A stretch of DNA of 39,701 nt. It comes from Lentisphaerota bacterium (GTDB lineage Bacteria > Verrucomicrobiota > Kiritimatiellia > Kiritimatiellales > Pontiellaceae). The stretch is taken from the NCBI GenBank assembly GCA_012729265.1, contig JAAYDL010000194.1, forward strand, positions 1-39,701, read 5' to 3'. Position 1 is the first letter of the stretch. Each line of letters opens with the position of its first letter. Of the stretch, positions 4,427 through 34,536 are shown piece by piece. The notes under the pieces are model-generated. The model was not told the origin of the DNA. It worked only from the letters and a program-made list of their open reading frames with translations, and ran no database searches. A program made the position numbers and the translations under genes.

Positions 4427-4656
4427 TCCTCCACCTCAAAGGGAGCTTCGACCAACTCGCCATCCTTCTTTACCAGCTTCTCAATCTTCTGCTCCACTTC
4501 ATTGAGTTTATTCGTGCACACATCGACCAACGCCGAGCCTTCTTCAAAGTGCTTGATCATCTCTTCCAGGCTCAGTTCGCCGCCTTCCATATCCGCAACC
4601 AACTTTTCCAGCCGCCCCAACGCCTGCTCAAAATCTGTAATTTTTGCATCTGCCAT
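4423..4656 (-). CDS. xseB: Exodeoxyribonuclease VII small subunit
   Basis: Small subunit of exonuclease VII, which degrades single-stranded DNA in both directions together with XseA. The 77-residue helical protein shows the family pattern: ITDFEQALGRLEKLVADMEG, then GELSLEEMIKHFEEGSAL and a charged C-terminal helix with LNEVEQKIEKL. A clear GGAGG-type site (CTGGAGG) lies about 8 bases before the ATG. It lies 15 bases after the ATPase gene that separates it from xseA, and overlaps the protease gene downstream by 4 bases. Confidence 0.95.
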   Translation of the reverse strand: MADAKITDFEQALGRLEKLVADMEGGELSLEEMIKHFEEGSALVDVCTNKLNEVEQKIEKLVKKDGELVEAPFEVEE

Positions 4657-4671
4657 TTTTTCCTCCAGTCC

Positions 4672-5898
4672 TCACAAACACTCAAATGGAATACCAACAA
4701 TTTTCTCTGTATACAATCGAGGAGCAAAATCATTGTTCACAACAATCCCGAAAGCACAGCCCCGTTCCTTTACAAAGCTGTTCAACCCCCGCAAGTCGCG
4801 TTGATCCACCCGCTGGCCCCGCTTGATCTCAATCGGCACCAACCCAAACATGCCCTCCAACACCAGATCCACCTCTGCACCGGCCGCTGTTCTATAATAA
4901 TATGGGTCATACGCGATGCCCAAAGCATTCAATTGCCGCAAAATCTCTTCCACCACCATGCCCTCCCAGGAACGCCCCACCATAGGATGCCCCAGCAAGG
5001 CCTGCAGATCAGGAATCCGCATCAAATAGTGCAGCAACCCCGAATCACGAAAATATCCTTTGGGAGCCTTCACAATACGCTTACGTGCATCCTTTTCATA
5101 AGCCGGAAGCTTGCGCCAAAGAAATGTTCCGTGAGCAATTTCAAAATAATCGCGAACCGTCGGCTGCGAAACCCCAAGCACTCGAGCCACCTCTGAATAG
5201 TTCAGTGTCTGGCCGGACAACCCCGCCAACACCTGAACAAATAACCGAAATTTTTCGCGATTCAGTCCAGGAAAAAGTTGCCCCACATCGCGCTGAAGAT
5301 AGGTTCGAACATAGTGATCCATCCACCGCTCTGAAAAACGAGCGTCATCTGTCAACCACGGTTCTGGATATCCCCCTTTGAACCAATAGTCGGCCACCCG
5401 TCCTGACATCGCCTCAATAATCTCAACCCCCGCCAAATCTCGCGGCGAGCAGGATCCTGAAGCAATCATCCGAATGGGTTGCCCGATCTCTCCCCTCAGC
5501 GTTTCCGCCCAAAGAAAAGGCGACATTTCAATAATTCCGACACGCCCCGCCAACGTCTCCGAAACCGAACGCATCAGTTCAGGCGAGCTTGATCCTGTGA
5601 TAATAAAGCGACCCTTCTTTGCCCGGTCTCGATCAACTTCAACCCTCAGAGCAGAAAACAGCCCCGGAAGCATCTGAGCCTCATCGATAATGGTCCGCTC
5701 AGAATATAAACGCAGAAACTGCTCAGGGTCCGGCTCAATCGCAGCCAGATCGCTCGCACGTTCAGCATCAAAATAGTGCCACGGCGTTCCCAACGATTTC
5801 ACCAGCGTGGTTTTCCCACACTGGCGCGGACCGACCACTGCAACGCAGGGAAACAGCTCCAGATATTCCTCCAAAAGCGATTGATAAATCCGTCTCAT
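4672..5898 (-). CDS. AAA ATPase of the DUF4143 type
   Basis: A 408-residue ATP-binding protein of a large family of unknown role found across bacteria and archaea. The AAA_14 domain has the P-loop GPRQCGKTTLVKSLG (Lys29) and Walker B-like TIIDEAQML. A DUF4143 region follows at about 195-355, with a winged-helix-like segment (NYSEVARVLGVSQPTVRDYF). The C-terminus (AEVDLVLEGMFGLVPIEIK) has the D...E-x-K pattern of a PD-(D/E)XK fold. I chose the ATG at 5898; a TTG at 5934 is also in frame. Neighbours make it an insertion between xseA and xseB, which are normally adjacent. A palindrome sits just upstream. Partner and function are unknown. Confidence 0.85.
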   Translation of the reverse strand: MRRIYQSLLEEYLELFPCVAVVGPRQCGKTTLVKSLGTPWHYFDAERASDLAAIEPDPEQFLRLYSERTIIDEAQMLPGLFSALRVEVDRDRAKKGRFIITGSSSPELMRSVSETLAGRVGIIEMSPFLWAETLRGEIGQPIRMIASGSCSPRDLAGVEIIEAMSGRVADYWFKGGYPEPWLTDDARFSERWMDHYVRTYLQRDVGQLFPGLNREKFRLFVQVLAGLSGQTLNYSEVARVLGVSQPTVRDYFEIAHGTFLWRKLPAYEKDARKRIVKAPKGYFRDSGLLHYLMRIPDLQALLGHPMVGRSWEGMVVEEILRQLNALGIAYDPYYYRTAAGAEVDLVLEGMFGLVPIEIKRGQRVDQRDLRGLNSFVKERGCAFGIVVNNDFAPRLYTEKIVGIPFECL

Positions 5899-5918
5899 GC
5901 AAAGCAAATTAAAACTCC

Positions 5919-5938
5919 AACCTTGAATATGCAAGGTT
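5919..5938 (-). promoter_or_regulatory. Palindrome upstream of the DUF4143 ATPase gene
   Basis: AACCTTG-AATATG-CAAGGTT on the plus strand: a perfect 7-bp inverted repeat with a 6-base spacer. It overlaps the xseA stop codon and ends about 20 bases before the ATPase ATG. Position and symmetry fit an operator for a dimeric regulator, or the edge of an inserted gene cassette. The ATPase has a winged-helix-like segment, so self-regulation is conceivable but unproven. Confidence 0.45.
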
Positions 5939-7313
5939 ATTTACTGTGAACATCGGACGCTACCTGCCCATCAGCAAACTGCGTAATAATGGTATCGCCC
6001 GATGCCAACACCGTAGCGCTCCGCACCACCGAACCATCCGGTCGCCGCGTCAGGCTGTAGCCGCGCCCCAAGACCGCCAACGGATTCAGCATCCGCAATT
6101 GCCCCTCAATCCGCTCCAACCGATACCGTTCGCGCTCCGCCTTCCGCTCCATCCGGTGCCGCATCAACACCGAACACTCATCCACCCGCTGATATCGCTG
6201 CTGCACCGCACCCTCCAGCGCATGTACCGCCCGCACATGGGCGTTTTCAATCCGCCGCTTCCCCTGCTGCACGCCCAGCTTCAGCAGATCGCCCATTCGC
6301 GTCTCCAGCGACCGCAACCGCTGACGATACTGCCGCACCAAATTTTCCGGCTCACGAAAGACATAACTGTGCGCCTGACGATTTAAACGCAAACGAAATT
6401 CCTGCACCATCGCCCGCAGCGCCTGACGCAGCTGTCGATCGCACCGCGCCACGGCTTCCACCAGCTCGCTCTTTTCCCGCACCGCCAGCTCTGCCGCCGC
6501 CGAAGGCGTCGGTGCGCGTACATCCGCCGTAAAATCCGCGATCGTAAAATCGATCTCGTGGCCAACCGCCGAAATCACCGGAATCGCAGAGCGTGCAATG
6601 GCCCGCGCCACCACCTCTTCGTTAAACGCCCACAAATCCTCAATACTGCCGCCGCCGCGCCCCACAATCAGCACGTCGATCGGCAACGTAGAGCATGCGT
6701 CCCGCTTGCCCCTCGTCAAGCGAGACGCTTGATCTACTTTATTCAAATAATCGATCGCTGCGGCGATGCTCTCTGCCGCGCCCGCACCCTGTACTTTTAC
6801 CGGTGCCAGGAGGATCTGAATATTCGGAAACCGCCGCGTCAGCACGTTGATGATGTCGCGAACCGCCGCCCCCGTTGGAGAGGTCACCACCCCGATTCGG
6901 CGCGGCAGCAGCGGCAACGGCTTTTTCCGATCCGCATCAAATAATCCCTCCGCAGCGAGCCTAGCCTTCAGCTTTTCAAACTGCTCCTGTAGATTGCCCT
7001 TGCCCGCCTCCTCCATCACCGAAGCGATCAGTTGATAGCGACCGCCTGATTCATAGAGACTCGGCCGCGCAAACAGCTGCACCTTCATGCCGTCCTTCGG
7101 GCGAAAGGTAACGCGCAGGTTATCCTTGCGGAACATCATGCAGGAAACCGCCGCACTCTCATCCTTCAGCGTAAAATACCAATGCCCGCTTGAATGGATC
7201 GTCACGCGCGACAGCTCGCCCTCCACCCACACTTCGCCGATGCCGCTCTCCAGCACCATCCGCGCCTTGCGGTTCACCTCCGCAACGGAATAAACTCTGC
7301 GTTTATCGCTCAT
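5937..7313 (-). CDS. xseA: Exodeoxyribonuclease VII large subunit
   Basis: Catalytic subunit of exonuclease VII, 458 residues. An N-terminal OB-fold (GEVWVEGELSRV, SGHWYFTLKDESA) is followed by the nuclease domain with IGVVTSPTGAAVRDI and the signature VGRGGGSIEDLWAFN, then SAVGHEIDFTIADF and APTPSAAAELAV. A coiled-coil stretch and the short C-terminal barrel (LGRGYSLTRRPDG) complete it. An unusual insert, QASRLTRGKRDACSTLP, sits just before the VGRGGGS motif and is encoded by a DNA hairpin (6697-6728). The frame is intact. The ATG follows AAGGA and overlaps the end of the RhuM fragment by 11 bases. The ATPase gene follows where xseB would be expected. Confidence 0.95.
   Translation of the reverse strand: MSDKRRVYSVAEVNRKARMVLESGIGEVWVEGELSRVTIHSSGHWYFTLKDESAAVSCMMFRKDNLRVTFRPKDGMKVQLFARPSLYESGGRYQLIASVMEEAGKGNLQEQFEKLKARLAAEGLFDADRKKPLPLLPRRIGVVTSPTGAAVRDIINVLTRRFPNIQILLAPVKVQGAGAAESIAAAIDYLNKVDQASRLTRGKRDACSTLPIDVLIVGRGGGSIEDLWAFNEEVVARAIARSAIPVISAVGHEIDFTIADFTADVRAPTPSAAAELAVREKSELVEAVARCDRQLRQALRAMVQEFRLRLNRQAHSYVFREPENLVRQYRQRLRSLETRMGDLLKLGVQQGKRRIENAHVRAVHALEGAVQQRYQRVDECSVLMRHRMERKAERERYRLERIEGQLRMLNPLAVLGRGYSLTRRPDGSVVRSATVLASGDTIITQFADGQVASDVHSK
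6697..6728. repeat. Palindromic element inserted in frame in xseA
   Basis: Two 12-base arms (GCGTCCCGCTTG and CAAGCGAGACGC) pair at 11 of 12 positions around an 8-base loop. The hairpin is read in the xseA frame as part of ASRLTRGKRDAC, a stretch absent from usual XseA proteins at this place, where a short variable loop precedes the VGRGGGS motif. It behaves like the Rickettsia palindromic elements that insert in frame at protein surface loops. No second copy was seen in the window. Confidence 0.6.
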
Positions 7314-26853: not shown

Positions 26854-27102
26854 TTACGTGTTGGCTCCCGATAACATCAAACGGTGCAAGCCATCGACCA
26901 ACGTCAACTCATGAAAATTCACCAACAACCCAACCGGAACATCCAACAACTTCATATCTGCTTTTTCGAATAGTGGATGCATCATCTCTTCTTCGTTCTC
27001 TTCGTTTCCTTCTGTAATATAAACACTCTCAACCAACCCCACCTTTGCAGCAGAAAACAACAAAGGTAATGAAGCTTTTGGTTTCTCGCATGCAGACTTC
27101 AA
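26854..27102 (-). pseudogene. GxxExxY protein remnant interrupted by a repeat
   Basis: The C-terminal part, DMKLLDVPVGLLVNFHELTL then DGLHRLML, matches the end of GxxExxY proteins. Further upstream GLVESVY recalls the family's signature near its N-terminus. Between them the family's core of about 70 residues is missing and is replaced by purine-rich DNA (GGAAACGAAGAGAACGAAG, read as EGNEENEEE), a short dispersed repeat. The product has 82 residues instead of about 125 and cannot fold normally. It lies between uvrA and the toxin gene. Confidence 0.55.
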
Positions 27103-27108
27103 GCCAGA

Positions 27109-27504
27109 TCATTTGTTAAGAAATTCAGAAGGAGTCCGGATCCGTATACCGTTCCATTCTTTGAGCGAAAGAAGGTGCTTGTCGCCGGACACAATGTAAT
27201 CCGCCTTTGCCGCCAAAGCAGCTTCCAGAATCCGATCATCATCTGGATCGTTTTCCACCACGCAGAGATGCACATCAGGAGAAACAAGCAGAAAAGTCTC
27301 GGCAAAGGTCTCGACGATGACGGAAACCTGTTCCTGCGTAAGGCCGAACTTCGGACGAATCAACACATCCTTCACCTCCGCTAAGATATCAATGCTGACG
27401 GCGTTCTCAAAATGTCCCCGTGCAATCCGCTCGAGAATGCGCCGGGGAGGCCCATTAAAGAGAACCCCTGACACCAGCACATTGGTATCGCAGACCATTC
27501 TCAT
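27109..27504 (-). CDS. PIN-domain toxin of a toxin-antitoxin pair (COG1569 type)
   Basis: A 131-residue PIN-domain ribonuclease. The acidic active-site residues are visible: Asp6 in CDTNVLVSG, Glu43 in LAEVKDVL, Asp90 in DPDDDRILEAAL and Asp108 in VSGDKHLLSL. Family members cut RNA when free of antitoxin. It overlaps the antitoxin stop by 4 bases (ATGA), so the pair is co-translated with the antitoxin first. The frame is complete. Confidence 0.9.
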   Translation of the reverse strand: MRMVCDTNVLVSGVLFNGPPRRILERIARGHFENAVSIDILAEVKDVLIRPKFGLTQEQVSVIVETFAETFLLVSPDVHLCVVENDPDDDRILEAALAAKADYIVSGDKHLLSLKEWNGIRIRTPSEFLNK

Positions 27505-27737
27505 TGTCCGTTCCGTACGGCAGCGATCTCATCCTCAACATCCTTCTGCGTAATCCCCTGCTTTTCTCGTACAGCATCTCCCATTGAAAACAGGGCATCT
27601 AAGCGCCGTTGGCGCTGGACATATTGCCGGGCAGCCTCCCGCAAGAGCTCGGAACGACTTCGAGATTCGCGTTTGGCCTCTGTATCAATCTCTCCCAACA
27701 ACGTATCCTGAAACGAAATATTCACGGTTACATTCAT
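27501..27737 (-). CDS. Ribbon-helix-helix antitoxin
   Basis: A 78-residue protein. The N-terminal strand and helices (NVTVNISFQDTLLGEI, RSRSELLREAARQYV) have the CopG/RHH DNA-binding pattern; the acidic C-terminal half (GITQKDVEDEIAAVRNG) would wrap the toxin. I chose the ATG at 27737, 10 bases after a perfect AGGAGG. It should repress its own promoter, as a palindrome overlaps the -10 region. Confidence 0.88.
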   Translation of the reverse strand: MNVTVNISFQDTLLGEIDTEAKRESRSRSELLREAARQYVQRQRRLDALFSMGDAVREKQGITQKDVEDEIAAVRNGQ

Positions 27738-27766
27738 ACCTAAATGACCTCCTGAAACAGCTGAAT

Positions 27767-27795
27767 CATATACAAACATTGTATGCCCATGTCAA
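27767..27795 (-). promoter_or_regulatory. Toxin-antitoxin promoter with overlapping operator
   Basis: On the minus strand TTGACA (27790-27795) and TATATG (27767-27772) are exactly 17 bases apart, a near-consensus sigma-70 promoter. The palindrome ATACAA-ACA-TTGTAT (27770-27784, plus strand) overlaps the -10 box and fits binding by the RHH antitoxin. The antitoxin start lies about 30 bases downstream. Confidence 0.7.
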
Positions 27796-27890: not shown

Positions 27891-28151
27891 TTAAATACTT
27901 TTCTTCCCGCGATAGTTAAAAACCTGTTCAAAGGCATACGATTCCGGGTCCGAATATGCATTCAGCGCCTCCAGAATCTTGTCCTGCAGATTCGTCGTCA
28001 AGCGCCGCCCTTTGCGCGCCTTCTGCACCTGCTTATGATTAATATAGCCCGGCGTACACGCCGCCACCAGATCATGATTCTTAATCCCCTTCTCCGTCAT
28101 GATCGCATCCAGCGGCTGCACCCCAACATCCATTGAACTTTCTTCACTCAT
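27891..28151 (-). CDS. Small HTH-like protein at the end of the XPB operon
   Basis: 86 residues. The centre (LDAIMTEKGIKNHDLVAACT, KQVQKARKGRRLTTNLQDKI) has the spacing of a helix-turn-helix: a first helix pair, a basic recognition-like helix and a C-terminal helix (LEALNAY). I do not recognise a named family. The ATG overlaps the stop of the preceding helicase-associated gene by 4 bases (ATGA), so it is co-translated as last gene of the operon. It may regulate the operon or bind DNA with the complex. Confidence 0.7.
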   Translation of the reverse strand: MSEESSMDVGVQPLDAIMTEKGIKNHDLVAACTPGYINHKQVQKARKGRRLTTNLQDKILEALNAYSDPESYAFEQVFNYRGKKSI

Positions 28152-30136
28152 AGAATTCCTATTCCGTTCTCTCGTAACTTTTTCTTCATCGGCTCAAGCG
28201 TTTTTACGATTCCGTTTACGCGCACCAAGGTGTCGGTCAGGCACTCTGCCTTTTTGGGAAAGAGTCCGCAGACAAGCAGGGCGGTTTCGGCGTCGGGACA
28301 CTCAATCACCTGAATCTTCTGGAATGCGACACGCCGGAAGGCATTACTCCAACCCAAAATCTGCTTCCGCACGTTGGCCGGAACGCCTGTCGCGCAGAAC
28401 GCCTCCAGCACAGCAAGAATCTGATCGCCCGTCTGTTCGGAATTCAGTGCGCGCAGCACCGAGGCGCGGGTGATTTTAAAGAGCGCGCCCACCTGATTTC
28501 CGATTCGATCCGCAAAACGCGAAAACTCGCTCTCGGCCCCGGGATTCGGTGCGGTAAAAATGATTTCAAAATCGGGCTGAATCAGAATGCTGCCCTCGGC
28601 GACTTCGGCAGTATATTCAAATTCTTCGCGGGTTCCGATCAGATACGCGCCGGCGGGAGTGATAGAAAAGCGAATATCGCCCTGATCATCATAAGCCAGT
28701 TTTGCTCCGCCCAGCAGCAGCAACCGCTCATAAAGAAATCCGACCAGCACCTTGCGCCAGCGCTCTTCCCTGAACGCATCGCCGTCGATACCCTGCAGGC
28801 TTATATTTCTCAAGGGAATATTCGGATTCTGCAGCAGCGGATTATTGGATTCCGACTGCCAAAGAATGAACGCTTTCGCCTCGATCCATTCATCAACGGG
28901 ACAGTACGCAAAGGCTTCGGCAACACGGTCTTCGAGGTTTATTTCTCCCCTTCCGACATGGCCTTGCGGACTGAAGGGAACAAAATCCAATTGATCCCAC
29001 CCGCCCCACTTCCCGTCTGCAAAACGCCTTCGGGCGGCGCGCATATGATCGTGCAACGCCTTAAGCCGTTCGGCATCGCTCCCGGCGAGCCACGTACGCC
29101 CCTTTTTGAGCGCGACCCAATGTCGTTCCTTCTTACTTTCCCGGACGGAAACCATTTCCATATTCTTGAGCCAATTCCAGGCCTCATCGATTCGTCCCCA
29201 ATATGGAGGCTCATACCCGCATTCGCTCGGAGGATCGTCCAACAACGTTTCAGCCAGCCGCGCCTCCTCTTTTTTGTAAAGACCGGATCCATCCGCCTTC
29301 AGGCGGAGCCCCTCACCGCCGGCCGCCACCAAAACCGCCGTCATATCGTGCAGCAGCAGCGGAACATCGTAAACGGCGAAGCCTTTCGGCAAGGCTCCCG
29401 CCTTCGGGGCCTGCGCTTTGGGGCGGTTCATTCGGTCGTGAATCATCGGCCAGACGCCCACCACGGGAAGCAGATCCTCGCCGGACAACGCGGGAAACAG
29501 CAGCATAAAAAGAAGGCCGGCGCGCAGCGCATCCACCGCCTCCGCAACACTGTCCGCATTCTCCAGCAGCGCCGCAAGCGGAAGCGGGTTTTCGCCGGAG
29601 AGCATTCTTTCCACCCAGCGCCGCAGCAGGCGAAAACCTTCATCGCTCAGCCGAGGTCGATTATAGCCACCAACGGTTCGCCCATCCCATTCAAAGGCAG
29701 AACCGCAGTTAAGGAACGCCTTGAGCCAACTCGCATCAACCACCCCCTTCGCCACCGCCGATGATACTGAAGAGGTGCCACGGCAATAACGAGAAATTGA
29801 GAGACCGGGCAGATCGTTGCACTCGTACGAATTCAGGTGGTCAGAAACATAATCCACCGACAGCGTGGGACTCTTCTGATCAAAATGCCGGTGCCGATTC
29901 ATAGAACGCACCAGATTGCGGAATGGACGGATCGACTCCATCAGCCGCATTTTGTCCGACTCCATAAAACCCGCATCCATCAGCGCCTTTCTCGCCTCCG
30001 CAGAAAAAACCTTCGGATCGACTTTCAAATCCGATCCGATATGCTCCAGAAAGAGTCGCCTCGTTTCAACCGGCAGCTGTTCCCATTTCCCAAACCAGTC
30101 GAATGGATTAAGCCGCATATCCTTCCAAATCTTCAT
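28148..30136 (-). CDS. Helicase-associated-domain protein 2 (XPB partner)
   Basis: A 662-residue soluble protein. Its C-terminal module, from about 515, has GSILIQPDFEIIF, SRFADRIGNQVGALFKITRA, SVLRALNSEQTGDQILAVLE, ATGVPANVRKQILGW and the end LRENGIGIL. This is the Helicase_C_3-type module also found at the N-terminus of bacterial XPB and in the other partner gene. Winged-helix-like hairpins appear upstream (FSITPAGAYLIG, RLSDEGFRLLRRW). There is no ATPase or nuclease motif. The ATG follows GGAGAGC and shares one base with the XPB stop (TAATG). Probably a DNA-binding partner of the helicase. Confidence 0.82.
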   Translation of the reverse strand: MKIWKDMRLNPFDWFGKWEQLPVETRRLFLEHIGSDLKVDPKVFSAEARKALMDAGFMESDKMRLMESIRPFRNLVRSMNRHRHFDQKSPTLSVDYVSDHLNSYECNDLPGLSISRYCRGTSSVSSAVAKGVVDASWLKAFLNCGSAFEWDGRTVGGYNRPRLSDEGFRLLRRWVERMLSGENPLPLAALLENADSVAEAVDALRAGLLFMLLFPALSGEDLLPVVGVWPMIHDRMNRPKAQAPKAGALPKGFAVYDVPLLLHDMTAVLVAAGGEGLRLKADGSGLYKKEEARLAETLLDDPPSECGYEPPYWGRIDEAWNWLKNMEMVSVRESKKERHWVALKKGRTWLAGSDAERLKALHDHMRAARRRFADGKWGGWDQLDFVPFSPQGHVGRGEINLEDRVAEAFAYCPVDEWIEAKAFILWQSESNNPLLQNPNIPLRNISLQGIDGDAFREERWRKVLVGFLYERLLLLGGAKLAYDDQGDIRFSITPAGAYLIGTREEFEYTAEVAEGSILIQPDFEIIFTAPNPGAESEFSRFADRIGNQVGALFKITRASVLRALNSEQTGDQILAVLEAFCATGVPANVRKQILGWSNAFRRVAFQKIQVIECPDAETALLVCGLFPKKAECLTDTLVRVNGIVKTLEPMKKKLRENGIGIL

Positions 30137-31797
30137 TAAAGCTCTCCGTCGTGTGAAATGTGGTATTCATAGCCCTGCTCGCAGAGAAAAAGCTGGCGGT
30201 TCATTGCAAACTCCTGCTCCGTCGTTTCATGGCTGACCAACGAATAAAAGTGCGCTTGGTTCGCCCCCGGTTTCGGGCGCAGAATACGCCCCAGCCGTTG
30301 GGCCTCCTCCTGTCGCGACCCAAACGTGCCGGAAACCTGAATCGCCACCGCCGCATCCGGAAGGTCCACCGAAAAATTGGCAATTTTTGAACAGATCAGC
30401 ACCTTGGAGCGACCCGCCCGAAAATCGTCAAAAACAGCTTCGCGCCGCGCTTGCCCCGTCGAACCCGTCAACACGGGAACACCGAGGTCCTTCGCCAGCC
30501 CTTTGAGCTGATCGACATACATACCCAGAATCAGAATCCGTTCGCCCGCGTGACGCTCCAGCAACCGCTGCACCAGCTCCAGTTTGCGCGGATTTTCCGA
30601 GGCAATCCTGAACTTGGCCCGCTTCGACGCCACGGCATATTCCATGCGCAACGACGAATCCATCGTAACCCGAATCTCCTCGCAGCGGGCCTTTGCGATC
30701 CAGCCCTGCCGCTCCAGAATCTTCCACGGAACGTCATACCGCTTGGGACCAATCAGCGCAAATACATCGTCCTCGTGCCCATCCTCGCGCACCAGCGTCG
30801 CCGTAAGCCCAAGGCGCCGCCGCGCCTGAATCGAAGCGGTCACCTGAAAAATCGGCGCGGGCAGCATGTGAACCTCGTCATAAATCACCAGCCCCCAGTC
30901 GCGCTCATCAAACAGCTTCAAATGCTTAAACGGCGCATCGCGGTTTTCGCGGTGCGTCAGGATCTGATAGGTCGTCACCGTGATCGGCCGAATATCCTTC
31001 CGCCGCCCCGAATATTCGCCGATCTGATCTTCGCGGATCGTCGTCTTATCCAGAATCTCATCAATCCACTGGCGCACCGCCGTCACATTCGTCGCCAGAA
31101 TAAGCGTCGAAGCCTGCCGACGGTTAATGCAGTCCATACCGACAATCGTCTTACCCGCGCCGCACGGCAGCACCACCACGCCCGACCCCGCCGCACAGAA
31201 CGCATCCGCCGCATCCGTCTGATACCGGCGCGGCGCAAACAGTCCGCCCGACCGCATCTCCTGCCGCAGCTTTAACTGCAGACCATCGCCGTCGCAATAA
31301 CCCGCGCGGTCGTCCACCGGATAGCCGAACTTAATGAGCACCAGCTTCAGGCGACCTCGGAACAGCGGGCGCACCCGGAAACAGCCCGGCCCCGTCCGCT
31401 CGAGCAATTCCGCCGCCTCCTTATGGCGAACCAGCTCCTCGCACAGTGCCAGATCCTCCGAAACCAGCCGAAGCCAACCCTCATCCGCCGACTCCAGCAC
31501 CAGCCGCCCGTAACGCCGCGCAAAATCGTGCACCTCCGTCAGCACATGCTCCGGCGGCGGATATTTTGAGAACGACACCAGCACCTCAACAATCGCCTCC
31601 GCCGCATGGCCCGCTGCACAGGCGTTCCAGACTGAAAGCGGCGTGATCCGATAGGTATGAATGTGCTCCGGCGACTTTTCCAACTCGGCAAAAACCGCCA
31701 GCGCGTCGCGCGCCTCGCCGTAGCGTGGATTATCCACCTCCAGCAGAATGGCCCGGTCGCTCTGAATAATCAGTGGATTGGACGGATCATAATTCAC
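30136..31797 (-). CDS. XPB/Ssl2-like DNA helicase
   Basis: A 553-residue superfamily 2 helicase. The N-terminal helicase-associated module (PLIIQSDRAILLEV, HTYRITPLSVWNACAAGHAA, KYPPPEHVLTEVHDFARRYG) precedes the motor. Motifs are Walker A PCGAGKTIVG (Lys216), DEVH (Asp307), the TAT motif LGLTATLVREDG, and motif VI QRLGRILRPK (about 500-509). This is the layout of archaeal and bacterial XPB, with 3' to 5' unwinding known in the family. The start is GTG, overlapping the upstream stop by 4 bases (GTGA). Unlike archaea, no Bax1 nuclease is adjacent; two helicase-associated proteins flank it instead. Confidence 0.92.
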   Translation of the reverse strand: MNYDPSNPLIIQSDRAILLEVDNPRYGEARDALAVFAELEKSPEHIHTYRITPLSVWNACAAGHAAEAIVEVLVSFSKYPPPEHVLTEVHDFARRYGRLVLESADEGWLRLVSEDLALCEELVRHKEAAELLERTGPGCFRVRPLFRGRLKLVLIKFGYPVDDRAGYCDGDGLQLKLRQEMRSGGLFAPRRYQTDAADAFCAAGSGVVVLPCGAGKTIVGMDCINRRQASTLILATNVTAVRQWIDEILDKTTIREDQIGEYSGRRKDIRPITVTTYQILTHRENRDAPFKHLKLFDERDWGLVIYDEVHMLPAPIFQVTASIQARRRLGLTATLVREDGHEDDVFALIGPKRYDVPWKILERQGWIAKARCEEIRVTMDSSLRMEYAVASKRAKFRIASENPRKLELVQRLLERHAGERILILGMYVDQLKGLAKDLGVPVLTGSTGQARREAVFDDFRAGRSKVLICSKIANFSVDLPDAAVAIQVSGTFGSRQEEAQRLGRILRPKPGANQAHFYSLVSHETTEQEFAMNRQLFLCEQGYEYHISHDGEL

Positions 31798-33500
31798 GGC
31801 AGCAGAATCCCCATTTTACGCAGCCCGCCCTGAAACTTTTTCAGGTTTTTCGCACGGACAAACACTACCGCACCGTTTCGACCCAGCACGGTCGGCGCAA
31901 TCGACTGATCGCTCGCCACAAGCGCGGCCGTCGATTCTTCGTCAAACGCAACCGCTACGGCCTCCTCCCGCCCGGAGACTTTACCAGCGCGCGCTACCGT
32001 TTCTCGAATCAGCCGAAGCACCGGCTCAGGAATCGACGTCGCGCTGCCCGCCTCCAGTACCGACAGAATATCCGCTTCACTATCGCCATTTTCCAGTGCT
32101 GCAAAAATCGTCCGCCGATCCATCTTCCAGACCGCATCCGACACCTTTTTCGCAAAGCGTTCAAGCTGCGCGGCATCAGCGACGGAAAAGCCCGCCGGAT
32201 CAACCACGGCAATTTCATGGTTCGGCAGCACCTTAAACAACTTCCTCTGCTCCGCAGCGGGCGGCTCATAAAGCGTCTCCCCCTCGCCCAGACAAAACCG
32301 CCCCAGCGGGGTCAGACGAATGTACACAATCCCGTCGTAGCGCGTCAGTCCACCGGCGCCATCCAAGCCCCAAGTGCGCCCCAGATCCGAACGTTGGGCA
32401 TCCGCTTCCCGATGCAGCAAATCCACCAACCCAAGCGTCGCCAGCGACTCGCAGACCAACTGCCGAAAATAGACCTTCCCAATCTTCCACTCAGCGTCAT
32501 AAAGCGCCCCGTATTGCCGATCGCAAATATACAGCGCCCACCCCTCCAGCACCACCCGGCAGTCCCCGCCTTCCGCCATGAAAAAAGAATAGGCATCATC
32601 CATCGAAACCCATTCGTTCACGGGAAACCGACCCAACTCATTCAGAACATCCATGCGGCGGGCCGGTGCCGGATTCCAGTTCCGGCGCGCAGCCCTGCCC
32701 CGAAACCCTTTGATCTCCGAAACCTGCAGGATTTCGTCAAACGTATCATCGAACTTCAGTTCCGAAATCCCCCGTTTAAAAGCCTCCGCCGAAAAATCCT
32801 CCAGCAGCGCCTTCCCCGTCGGCGTCAACCCAAACTTTCCGGCGCGGAACCGCGCCCAACCGCACTGCTGCAGCAACACAGGCCAGATAAACGAACGATT
32901 CGGGCCGCGTTTATCCTCGGGAAAAACCAGTGCCGTTGACGCCGCCTTTATCGCCGCCGCTGTCGGCAACCCTGTCTTTTCCGAAACGTTCATCTTGCCC
33001 GCCCCTGCGAGCTGAAGCATTCGCTTCAGCTCGGGAAACGCCAGTGCTTCCGATTCAAACAACTTAAGATCATCCATGTCAGGACAACTCGTCGTTACGC
33101 TCAACGCCTCCGACTTGGGAAGATGCGTCATCAATGCCTCCCGGACATCCTCCAGCAATAAATATTCGCCGGGGTACTCTCGAGAGATAAACAACTGACT
33201 GTACTGAATAGAGGCGTCAGATCGATCGCGCAAATCGTACCCAAAGCGAAACGTCAATCCATGCCTCGCCTTCAACCGCTCCGGAAAAACTTCATCCTGA
33301 TCCTCATGAACACAATCCGAAAGCATCACCCGCTCCGCCTCACTCATACGATCCAGAATTTCCAGCGGCTCATTCAGCCAGATACGGTTCAGCTCCGCCA
33401 CCATTTCCGCCTTGCGAGTAGGGCACTTTCGCTTCAGTTCTCGAAAAACCCGTTGCAAAACACTCGTCGTAAATCCATTAATCCGCTCGATAAACTTCAT
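31794..33500 (-). CDS. Helicase-associated-domain protein 1 (XPB partner)
   Basis: A 568-residue soluble protein. The C-terminal module from about 422 (KVLPNHEIAVVDPAG, AAQLERFAKKVSDAVWKMDR, RTIFAALENGDSEADILSVL, ATSIPEPVLRLIRE, end LRKMGILLP) follows the same pattern as in the second partner and in the N-terminus of XPB. Upstream are winged-helix-like segments (FGLTPTGKALLEDF, YIRLTPLGRFCLGEGE). No catalytic motif is seen. The ATG follows GGTGGAGA and overlaps the dusB end by 23 bases. The two partners share little outside the module, so they are probably not simple duplicates. Confidence 0.82.
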   Translation of the reverse strand: MKFIERINGFTTSVLQRVFRELKRKCPTRKAEMVAELNRIWLNEPLEILDRMSEAERVMLSDCVHEDQDEVFPERLKARHGLTFRFGYDLRDRSDASIQYSQLFISREYPGEYLLLEDVREALMTHLPKSEALSVTTSCPDMDDLKLFESEALAFPELKRMLQLAGAGKMNVSEKTGLPTAAAIKAASTALVFPEDKRGPNRSFIWPVLLQQCGWARFRAGKFGLTPTGKALLEDFSAEAFKRGISELKFDDTFDEILQVSEIKGFRGRAARRNWNPAPARRMDVLNELGRFPVNEWVSMDDAYSFFMAEGGDCRVVLEGWALYICDRQYGALYDAEWKIGKVYFRQLVCESLATLGLVDLLHREADAQRSDLGRTWGLDGAGGLTRYDGIVYIRLTPLGRFCLGEGETLYEPPAAEQRKLFKVLPNHEIAVVDPAGFSVADAAQLERFAKKVSDAVWKMDRRTIFAALENGDSEADILSVLEAGSATSIPEPVLRLIRETVARAGKVSGREEAVAVAFDEESTAALVASDQSIAPTVLGRNGAVVFVRAKNLKKFQGGLRKMGILLP

Positions 33501-34536
33501 TTTTCTCCACCAAAATATCCACTTCCGCCATAATCAAATCCACGCTTATCAGCGACGACAACTTCATCAGCAACTGCTTCTTATCAAACATCCCCTTCAC
33601 GTAATAGGGAATATGCGTACGGAACTGAATACAAGCCGCCTCTTCCGGCGTGTAGCGTTTTACACGCACAGGACTGGCCTTCTGTTTGAATTCGTTTAAC
33701 TCCACCAACCGACGCAGATGCTCCGCCATCAGATCGCGCCATTTTGAAAGCCTGCAGGATGCAGGCGGTACGACTGTATCGCCCGCATCTTGCCGGCCCT
33801 GTCTGATCTCCTCAAAAATCCACGGATTTCCGATCGCCCCGCGACCGATCATTACGCCGTCAACCCCCGAAACCTGAACCATTCGCTGTGCGTCCGCTGC
33901 GGATACTACGCCGCCGTTACCAATGACCGGGATCGACAGTGCCCGCTTCATTTCTCCCAGCGTTTCCCAGTCGGGATCGCCGCCATGAAAGTCTTTCGCC
34001 AAGCGTGCGTGTACCGCAATCAGGTCCGCGCCGCTCTGCTCCACCACGTGCGCAATCTCCAGATGATCCGCCGTATCCCGATTAAACCCAATCCGCGTCT
34101 TGACCGACACCGGGAGCGAAACCGCCGACCTTACCGTCTCAATAATTCGCCCCATCAGCGGCAGATCCTTCAGCAGCGCCGCGCCCGCCCCGCGTGAAAC
34201 CACCTTCTTCACCGGGCAGCCGCAGTTCAGATCAATCCAGTCAAAGCGACCATCCTGCTCAATCATCCTCGCCGCCTCGGCCATCCGGTGCGGGTCCGCC
34301 CCGAAAATATGCGCGGCAATCGGATGTTCGTTCCACGGCAGATCCAGCACCTCGCTGAACGTTTTTCCGCCGTCTCGGCTCAACCCCTCTGAGCTCGCCA
34401 ACTCCGTATACACCGCGCCGGCGCCCTGCTCCAGACAGAGCGTACGCATCGCGGCATCTGTATAGCCCGCCATCGGCGCCAGCAGCACCGGAAAATCAAT
34501 TTCAACCGATCCGAATTTGAGAGGTAATAAATGCAT
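33478..34536 (-). CDS. dusB: tRNA-dihydrouridine synthase (DusB type)
   Basis: FMN enzyme that reduces uridine to dihydrouridine in tRNA, 352 residues. The TIM barrel shows VLLAPMAGYTDAAMR, the catalytic Cys107 in NCGCPVKKVV, VKTRIGF, IAVHAR, IGNGGV and MIGRGAIGNPWIF. A C-terminal helical tRNA-binding domain follows. An insert, GRQDAGDTVVPPASCRLSKW, lies after EEIRQ where relatives have a short loop; it is encoded by a 22-base-pair DNA hairpin. The frame is intact, so the enzyme is probably active. It is the first gene of the XPB operon and overlaps the next gene by 23 bases. Confidence 0.93.
   Translation of the reverse strand: MHLLPLKFGSVEIDFPVLLAPMAGYTDAAMRTLCLEQGAGAVYTELASSEGLSRDGGKTFSEVLDLPWNEHPIAAHIFGADPHRMAEAARMIEQDGRFDWIDLNCGCPVKKVVSRGAGAALLKDLPLMGRIIETVRSAVSLPVSVKTRIGFNRDTADHLEIAHVVEQSGADLIAVHARLAKDFHGGDPDWETLGEMKRALSIPVIGNGGVVSAADAQRMVQVSGVDGVMIGRGAIGNPWIFEEIRQGRQDAGDTVVPPASCRLSKWRDLMAEHLRRLVELNEFKQKASPVRVKRYTPEEAACIQFRTHIPYYVKGMFDKKQLLMKLSSLISVDLIMAEVDILVEKNEVYRAD
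33750..33797. repeat. Palindromic element inserted in frame in dusB
   Basis: Two 22-base arms (33750-33771 and 33776-33797) pair at 18 positions around a 4-base loop. On the minus strand it reads QDAGDTVVPPASCR in the dusB frame, at a surface loop between the barrel and the helical domain. It differs in sequence from the hairpin in xseA. Translated palindromes of this sort are known as Rickettsia palindromic elements; a relation is not implied. Confidence 0.65.

Follow-up and report, generated by a model that had tools for sequence, protein, structure and literature searches.

A three-gene XPB helicase cassette with two p52/Tfb2-like partners between dusB and a small HTH-like gene in a Lentisphaerota bacterium

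The DNA analyzed here is contig JAAYDL010000194.1 of a Lentisphaerota bacterium, a stretch of 39,701 nucleotides which in its whole length is called the window and to which coordinates refer. On its minus strand lie five genes, in the order dusB, partner 1, XPB, partner 2 and a gene for a small helix-turn-helix (HTH)-like protein, and the coordinates of the open reading frames (ORFs) bear out that neighbors overlap by 23, 4, 1 and 4 bases, as the first-pass annotation of this DNA had stated. The three central genes encode an XPB helicase and two proteins, paralogues of each other, which are best described as p52/Tfb2-like after the subunit that recruits XPB in human TFIIH, a transcription and repair factor whose motor for opening DNA is XPB. 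These three genes form a cassette which was inserted as a block, while dusB and the HTH gene are its ordinary native neighbors.

The helicase matches NF045503, the NCBIfam equivalog for the DNA repair helicase XPB, over residues 8-547 of 553; it scores 825.6 bits, where the cut-off is 610. Its motor motifs are intact (GAGKT 213-217, DEVH 307-310, TAT 332-334, RED 337-339 and QRLGR 500-504) and they are invariant between this XPB and 21 others. PF13625 is found above its gathering score in the N-terminal domain, residues 9-132. The first-pass annotation had claimed by eye that both partners end in a module of this same type, and had asked for a profile search, which substantiated the claim: PF13625 is present at residues 443-539 of partner 1 (E 6.7e-10, 39.5 bits) and 517-618 of partner 2 (E 5e-9, 36.7 bits), both above the gathering score of 34.2, and XPB and the two partners hold the only three matches in the window's genome. 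Neither an absence of the module from the partners nor a lack of conserved linkage in other genomes was found. When the XPB N-terminal module was aligned by hhalign with partner 1 and partner 2, over about 150 columns each, both comparisons gave 97.6%, with E of 4.5e-12 and 4.2e-12, respectively. The match runs on beyond this domain, ends near residue 163 of XPB and takes in the DRD-like region; in each partner the matching part is the last 150 residues or so. The two partners resemble each other over a much longer stretch, from the winged-helix region to the end (99.9%, E 6.4e-34, 393 columns). Human XPB Thr119, noted as conserved in XPB and p52 (PMC6422496), has its aligned counterparts in Thr52 of the window XPB and Thr556 of partner 2, while partner 1 has at this position Asp461, invariant in a four-member alignment, a hint that the partners differ in what they do.

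Homology of the partners with p52/Tfb2 is well supported at the clutch, the part that binds XPB. In human TFIIH the p52 clutch (306-399) and the XPB N-terminal domain have the same fold and form a pseudo-symmetric dimer, through which XPB is recruited, and the second RecA domain of XPB is cradled by p52 and p8 (PMC6422496). When the partner-2 profile was compared with all PDB chains, the top six matches were Tfb2/p52, the best four with E from 4.7e-5 to 9e-4 and all at the clutch; the matches of this profile include yeast Tfb2 (4.7e-5), Tfb2/p52 in 6trs (4.6e-4) and, weakly, human p52 (0.06). The partner-1 profile found the human XPB N-terminal domain, residues 116-157 (E 0.0097). Scanned singly, 29 of 30 members of the partner-2 family carry PF13625, and nine of the 30 match Pfam Tfb2 (PF03849) at E <1, the best at 2.9e-4. 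AlphaFold2 (AF2) models were good for partner 2 and fair for partner 1, with mean predicted local distance difference test (pLDDT) values of 86.6 and 78.6. In Foldseek comparisons of these models with the PDB all 17 matches of partner 1 below 1e-3 are p52/Tfb2 (E 1.3e-6 to 5.9e-4), as are the first 22 matches of partner 2, of which the best has 1.6e-9. Next in rank is the XPB N-terminal domain, at 2e-3 and 5e-3 and 3 to 6 orders of magnitude weaker, so regions outside the clutch add to the match. p52 is thus the best fold match of both partners over about 590-615 columns, with TM-scores of 0.2-0.3 and a weak match when the N-terminal half is taken alone.

Table 1. Coordinates in the window of the XPB cassette, its modules and its flanking genes.
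Feature	Position	Strand	Basis or remark
dusB (tRNA dihydrouridine synthase)	33478-34536	-	PF01207 1.5e-68; native flanking gene, outside module
XPB cassette, 5,349 bp: partner 1, XPB, partner 2	28152-33500	-	Empty sites in G004, G028, G024 and others; base-level junction
Partner 1, p52-like, 568 aa, with a helical/winged-helix part at the N-terminus, the clutch module and an alpha/beta module at the C-terminus	31794-33500	-	PF13625, hhalign, AF2, Foldseek
Clutch module of partner 1 (residues 443-539)	31884-32174	-	PF13625; profile alignment to human XPB 116-157, E 0.0097
XPB helicase of 553 aa, starting at GTG, with an N-terminal (clutch-partner) domain, a DRD-like region and two RecA domains	30136-31797	-	NF045503
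Residues 9-132 of XPB, the N-terminal domain, whose module recurs in both partners	31402-31773	-	PF13625 1.9e-34; hhalign to both partner families
Partner 2, p52/Tfb2-like, 662 aa, with an N-terminal part rich in winged helices, the clutch and a CPD module at the C-terminus	28148-30136	-	PF13625, Tfb2 profile match, AF2, Foldseek
Clutch module of partner 2 (residues 517-618)	28283-28588	-	PF13625; alignment to Tfb2 337-405
Residues 596-662 of partner 2, the C-terminal module with the consensus LxxCPDxETA ... GIF	28151-28351	-	Aligns with XPB DRD-like region
Small HTH-like gene	27891-28151	-	Native flanking gene, outside module

To place the cassette among its neighbors, 58 related genomes were searched with the HTH-like protein and with DusB, of which the first was found in 46 and the second in 53. 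The two genes directly adjoin each other, with no XPB cassette between them, in most genomes of the same genus, the same family and the same order, and in the inspected loci of the same genus the pair is followed by uvrA, as it is in the window. In relatives uvrA is native to the locus, and its proximity is no evidence of a link to XPB. In G004 the dusB and HTH genes overlap by four bases, ATGA. The same end of dusB reads GAGAAAAATGAAGTTT in the window and runs on into partner 1, and partner 2 ends with CTATGAGTGAAG, where the HTH gene keeps its ATGA start. Exactly three genes, those of XPB and its partners, thus fill 5,349 bp at a junction that is empty in G004, G028, G024 and other relatives, and among the 58 genomes only the window species has the cassette at this place. 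A search of the other 57 relatives gave no partner 2, and XPB was not found in any further genome of the genus that was searched. The base composition of the cassette equals that of its neighbors and gives no sign of recent transfer. A misassembly of the fragmented draft, for which two breaks exactly at start codons would be needed, is unlikely.

The conserved neighborhood of dusB and a small HTH-like gene is seen in G001, G004-G006, G009, G024, G027, G028 and others, and a comparable pairing of dusB with a gene for a small DNA-binding protein is the gammaproteobacterial dusB-fis operon. A different gene, on the opposite strand and radical-SAM-like by eye, lies at the same dusB/HTH junction in G014 (L172, 3118-4815), which may mean that insertions recur at this place. 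In Pfam nothing matches the small HTH-like protein significantly; its best matches are weak and of HTH type (E 0.1-0.2). Between its gene and uvrA the window holds a ribbon-helix-helix/PIN-domain pair resembling a toxin-antitoxin system (27109-27779), present at the same place in G006 and G028 and absent from the other inspected genomes, and then, between the PIN gene and uvrA, an open frame of 82 amino acids with a TTG start (26854-27102) and no Pfam or PADLOC match.

In the wider phylum XPB was found in six of 388 sampled genomes, and in all six it has a p52-like neighbor. The order of the window, partner 1 (41.6% identity), XPB and partner 2 (32%), recurs in G240 (contig JAGYNC010000010.1), a metagenome-assembled genome of the Victivallaceae from a class different from that of the window species. 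G060 and G162 have partner 1 followed by XPB; the G060 contig stops 309 bases past XPB, while G162, with the partner-1 type only, is rated 100% complete. In G170 and G352 XPB is preceded by a divergent partner which profile comparison groups with partner 2 (96.3%, E 1.6e-9). A third conserved protein, of about 455 amino acids, is encoded before the divergent partner and XPB in these two genomes (L014, 231-1595, and L017, 9220-10590); it was considered as a further p52-like protein and rejected by hhalign, and it has no Pfam match either.

Among named genomes a scan with a profile built from a partner-2 alignment retrieved 80 loci, and a scan with the single partner-2 sequence none. Retrieved by similarity to partner 2 alone, 52 of these 80 loci have XPB within 1 kb; many of the remaining ones are on short contigs and others are solitary, for example in Hydrogenedentota and Isosphaeraceae. 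Full triples including XPB are present in the window, in Victivallaceae (L041), in Fermentibacterota (L054 and L074) and in Gemmatimonadetes (L049), where the order is XPB, partner 2, partner 1. Two partners lie side by side in Planctomycetota (L056 and L062), and Chloroflexota (L088, L097, L103 and L106) have an analogous triple in which XPB is accompanied by two clutch-bearing proteins, one of them upstream; in L103 these two match PF13625 at 2.6e-5 and 2e-18. The upstream protein of that locus (4618-6669) has near its N-terminus a weak match to the SAP domain (E 0.002), a possible DNA-binding element. The two-partner layout, which together with the small protein had at first been taken to suggest a distinct DNA-processing machine, is consequently not unique to this DNA. 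XPB with a single partner-2-type protein is found in many phyla, and XPB with one PF13625 partner is already visible in existing annotation. In the tree of XPB as in that of partner 2 the window and the Victivallaceae locus come out as a pair (support 100/99 and 97/99), as is expected if the genes travel together. The interpretation in the first-pass annotation is supported in part: the linkage of XPB with its partners recurs, and the small HTH protein and dusB find no support as parts of the machine.

On plasmids partner 2 was found only as a broken copy, in Singulisphaera acidiphila plasmid pSINAC01 (L012, 3860-8687), where it is cut into two frames by an IS66 element and no XPB is present in the stretch read. 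In Candidatus Sabulitectum (L075, 7959-10037) the partner-2 frame opens with residues resembling the XPB C-terminus and no XPB was found ahead of it, as if XPB had been deleted. Related genomes without XPB, the same genus included, encode a clutch-superfamily protein of 600-630 amino acids adjoining a SNF2-type ATPase (L037, 7909-12524; L038, 416-5269; L039, 7424-12150; L040, 3876-8599). This protein belongs to the same superfamily as the partners (hhalign 96.7%, E 3.9e-10), and the ATPases align with XPB over the motor only, with no clutch found in them. It may be that p52-like proteins serve there a second kind of motor.

The reading which we favor, with moderate confidence, is that the cassette encodes a bacterial XPB-p52 module in which XPB, clamped through the clutch, opens duplex DNA. 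Its computed support consists of the homology of the modules, the paralogy of the partners, their apparently p52-like architecture and best fold match, the intact motor, the recurrent linkage and the insertion as a block, whereas formation of the complex, its clutch interface, stimulation of the ATPase, the role in repair and the reason for two partners are inferred. By analogy with p52 in TFIIH, the clutch of each partner would face the N-terminal domain of XPB in a pseudo-symmetric dimer and so hold the helicase, with the C-terminal module of the partner placed near the XPB motor and its winged helices in contact with DNA or with another protein or factor. XPB ATPase is stimulated by p52, as cited in PMC3353954, and the bacterial enzyme, clamped and stimulated in a like manner, would pull or wrench the duplex open, most likely at damaged or stalled DNA and ahead of UvrABC or another nuclease. 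A role in repair is probable from what is generally known of XPB. The function of bacterial and archaeal XPB is termed elusive in a 2026 review (PMC13024598). Some of the results weigh against this reading. The whole-chain Foldseek matches, with their low TM-scores (0.2-0.3), have a root-mean-square deviation of about 20 Å, which points to a similar order of domains and not to rigid superposition, and the crystal structure of the p52 N-terminal half (6tru) matches partner 1 weakly (E 0.59). Partner 2 reaches 10.3 bits against Pfam Tfb2, below the gathering score of 34.5 and with the clutch region alone matched; likewise, in a Pfam Tfb2 search of genomes the best match in the window's genome was partner 2 at the clutch, at noise level (E 0.55). 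The window proteins are therefore named p52-like and are not filed as Tfb2. Finally, a profile search of the PDB did not recover p8/TFB5 for the C-terminal module of partner 2, so that a kinship suspected by eye received no support from it.

The presence of two partners could be explained in more than one way. As XPB has one clutch site, the partners would either belong to two alternative complexes or share a single one, with their C-terminal modules paired in the manner of the p52 C-terminal domain and p8. It is less likely, though well worth considering, that the partners are used separately, each in its own complex with XPB; the two resulting machines could then act, for instance, on different lesions or substrates. 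The single N-terminal clutch site and the 1:1 dimer of TFIIH (PMC6422496) are in accordance with this, as is the occurrence of either partner type alone with XPB (partner 2 in many phyla, partner 1 in G162) and the invariant Asp of partner 1 in place of the Thr of XPB and partner 2. However, where both partners occur each adjoins XPB or the other partner with overlapping reading frames, which suggests equal dosage. A more far-reaching version of the favored XPB-p52 module, to which we give somewhat less than even chances, is a minimal TFIIH-like bacterial module of XPB and p52-like scaffolds which in some lineages has a pair, p52 and p52', with C-terminal modules paired like those of p52 and p8.

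The remaining explanations are further from the evidence. The first-pass annotation had thought of repair or defense, and the patchy distribution of a horizontally moved helicase cassette (six of 388 genomes in the phylum, the window species alone among 58 relatives), its clean insertion at an operon junction used by another insert in G014 and the nearby toxin-antitoxin pair would suit an anti-phage or mobile-element system. Nevertheless we regard this as improbable, and the defense part of the suggestion is given up: no PADLOC model matches the partners or the HTH protein and XPB matches only helicase models, weakly; there are no recurrent defense neighbors in 40 inspected loci; no XPB relative was found in viral contigs; in Paenibacillus, Alicyclobacillus and Chloroflexota the pairing of XPB with a partner recurs from species to species; and the base composition of the cassette is that of its host. 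Bax1 being the established prokaryotic partner of XPB (PMC7293015, PMC13024598), a partner could also be a nuclease, but no nuclease family is recognized in either of them and no Bax1 is present among the 50 best Foldseek PDB matches of either model, which makes a helicase-nuclease of this kind very doubtful. Equally hard to credit is a dedicated machine of all five genes, with the small HTH protein as a component, the version of the first-pass annotation, for which the overlap of all five reading frames would speak. The ancestral order is dusB-HTH-uvrA in the genus and dusB-HTH in the order, in most relatives without XPB, and the HTH gene was not found at any other XPB locus examined; the empty dusB/HTH sites therefore refute a five-gene machine as an ancestral unit. 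Co-regulation of all five genes, in the window species alone, is possible.

In 2012 p52 was reported as not found in bacteria, and our literature search for bacterial relatives, with subscription journals and preprints outside its coverage, gave no paper naming them. If the partners are p52-like in their action as well, the clutch mechanism could be tested in a system of two or three proteins, tracing the origin of TFIIH in bacteria would become possible, and there would be a direct genetic handle on what bacterial XPB does. If the minimal TFIIH-like module holds true, eukaryotes would not have invented the partnership of XPB and p52, and the cassette with its two partners would be a machine for opening DNA that is both mobile and self-contained.

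Compared with known systems, the cassette shares with XPB-p52-p8 of TFIIH the homology of the XPB N-terminal domain and the partner's clutch, and probably also the order of winged helices, clutch and C-terminal domain, in partners whose best fold match is p52. It differs in having two p52-like paralogues where TFIIH has one p52 plus p8, in the larger size of these partners and the restriction of sequence similarity to the clutch, and in that no p44, p34, p62 or XPD is seen in it. With archaeal XPB-Bax1 it has in common a prokaryotic XPB and an operon-type partner, but its partners have no nuclease domain and no structural match to Bax1 in their top hits. The Snf2-clutch pairs of related genomes likewise place a superfamily partner beside an SF2 motor, which in their case is a SNF2-type ATPase and not XPB. 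In bacterial XPBs with one PF13625 partner, such as those of Paenibacillus and Alicyclobacillus, the clutch-bearing partner directly follows XPB, often with a 4-base overlap; the window has in addition a second, paralogous partner upstream of XPB.

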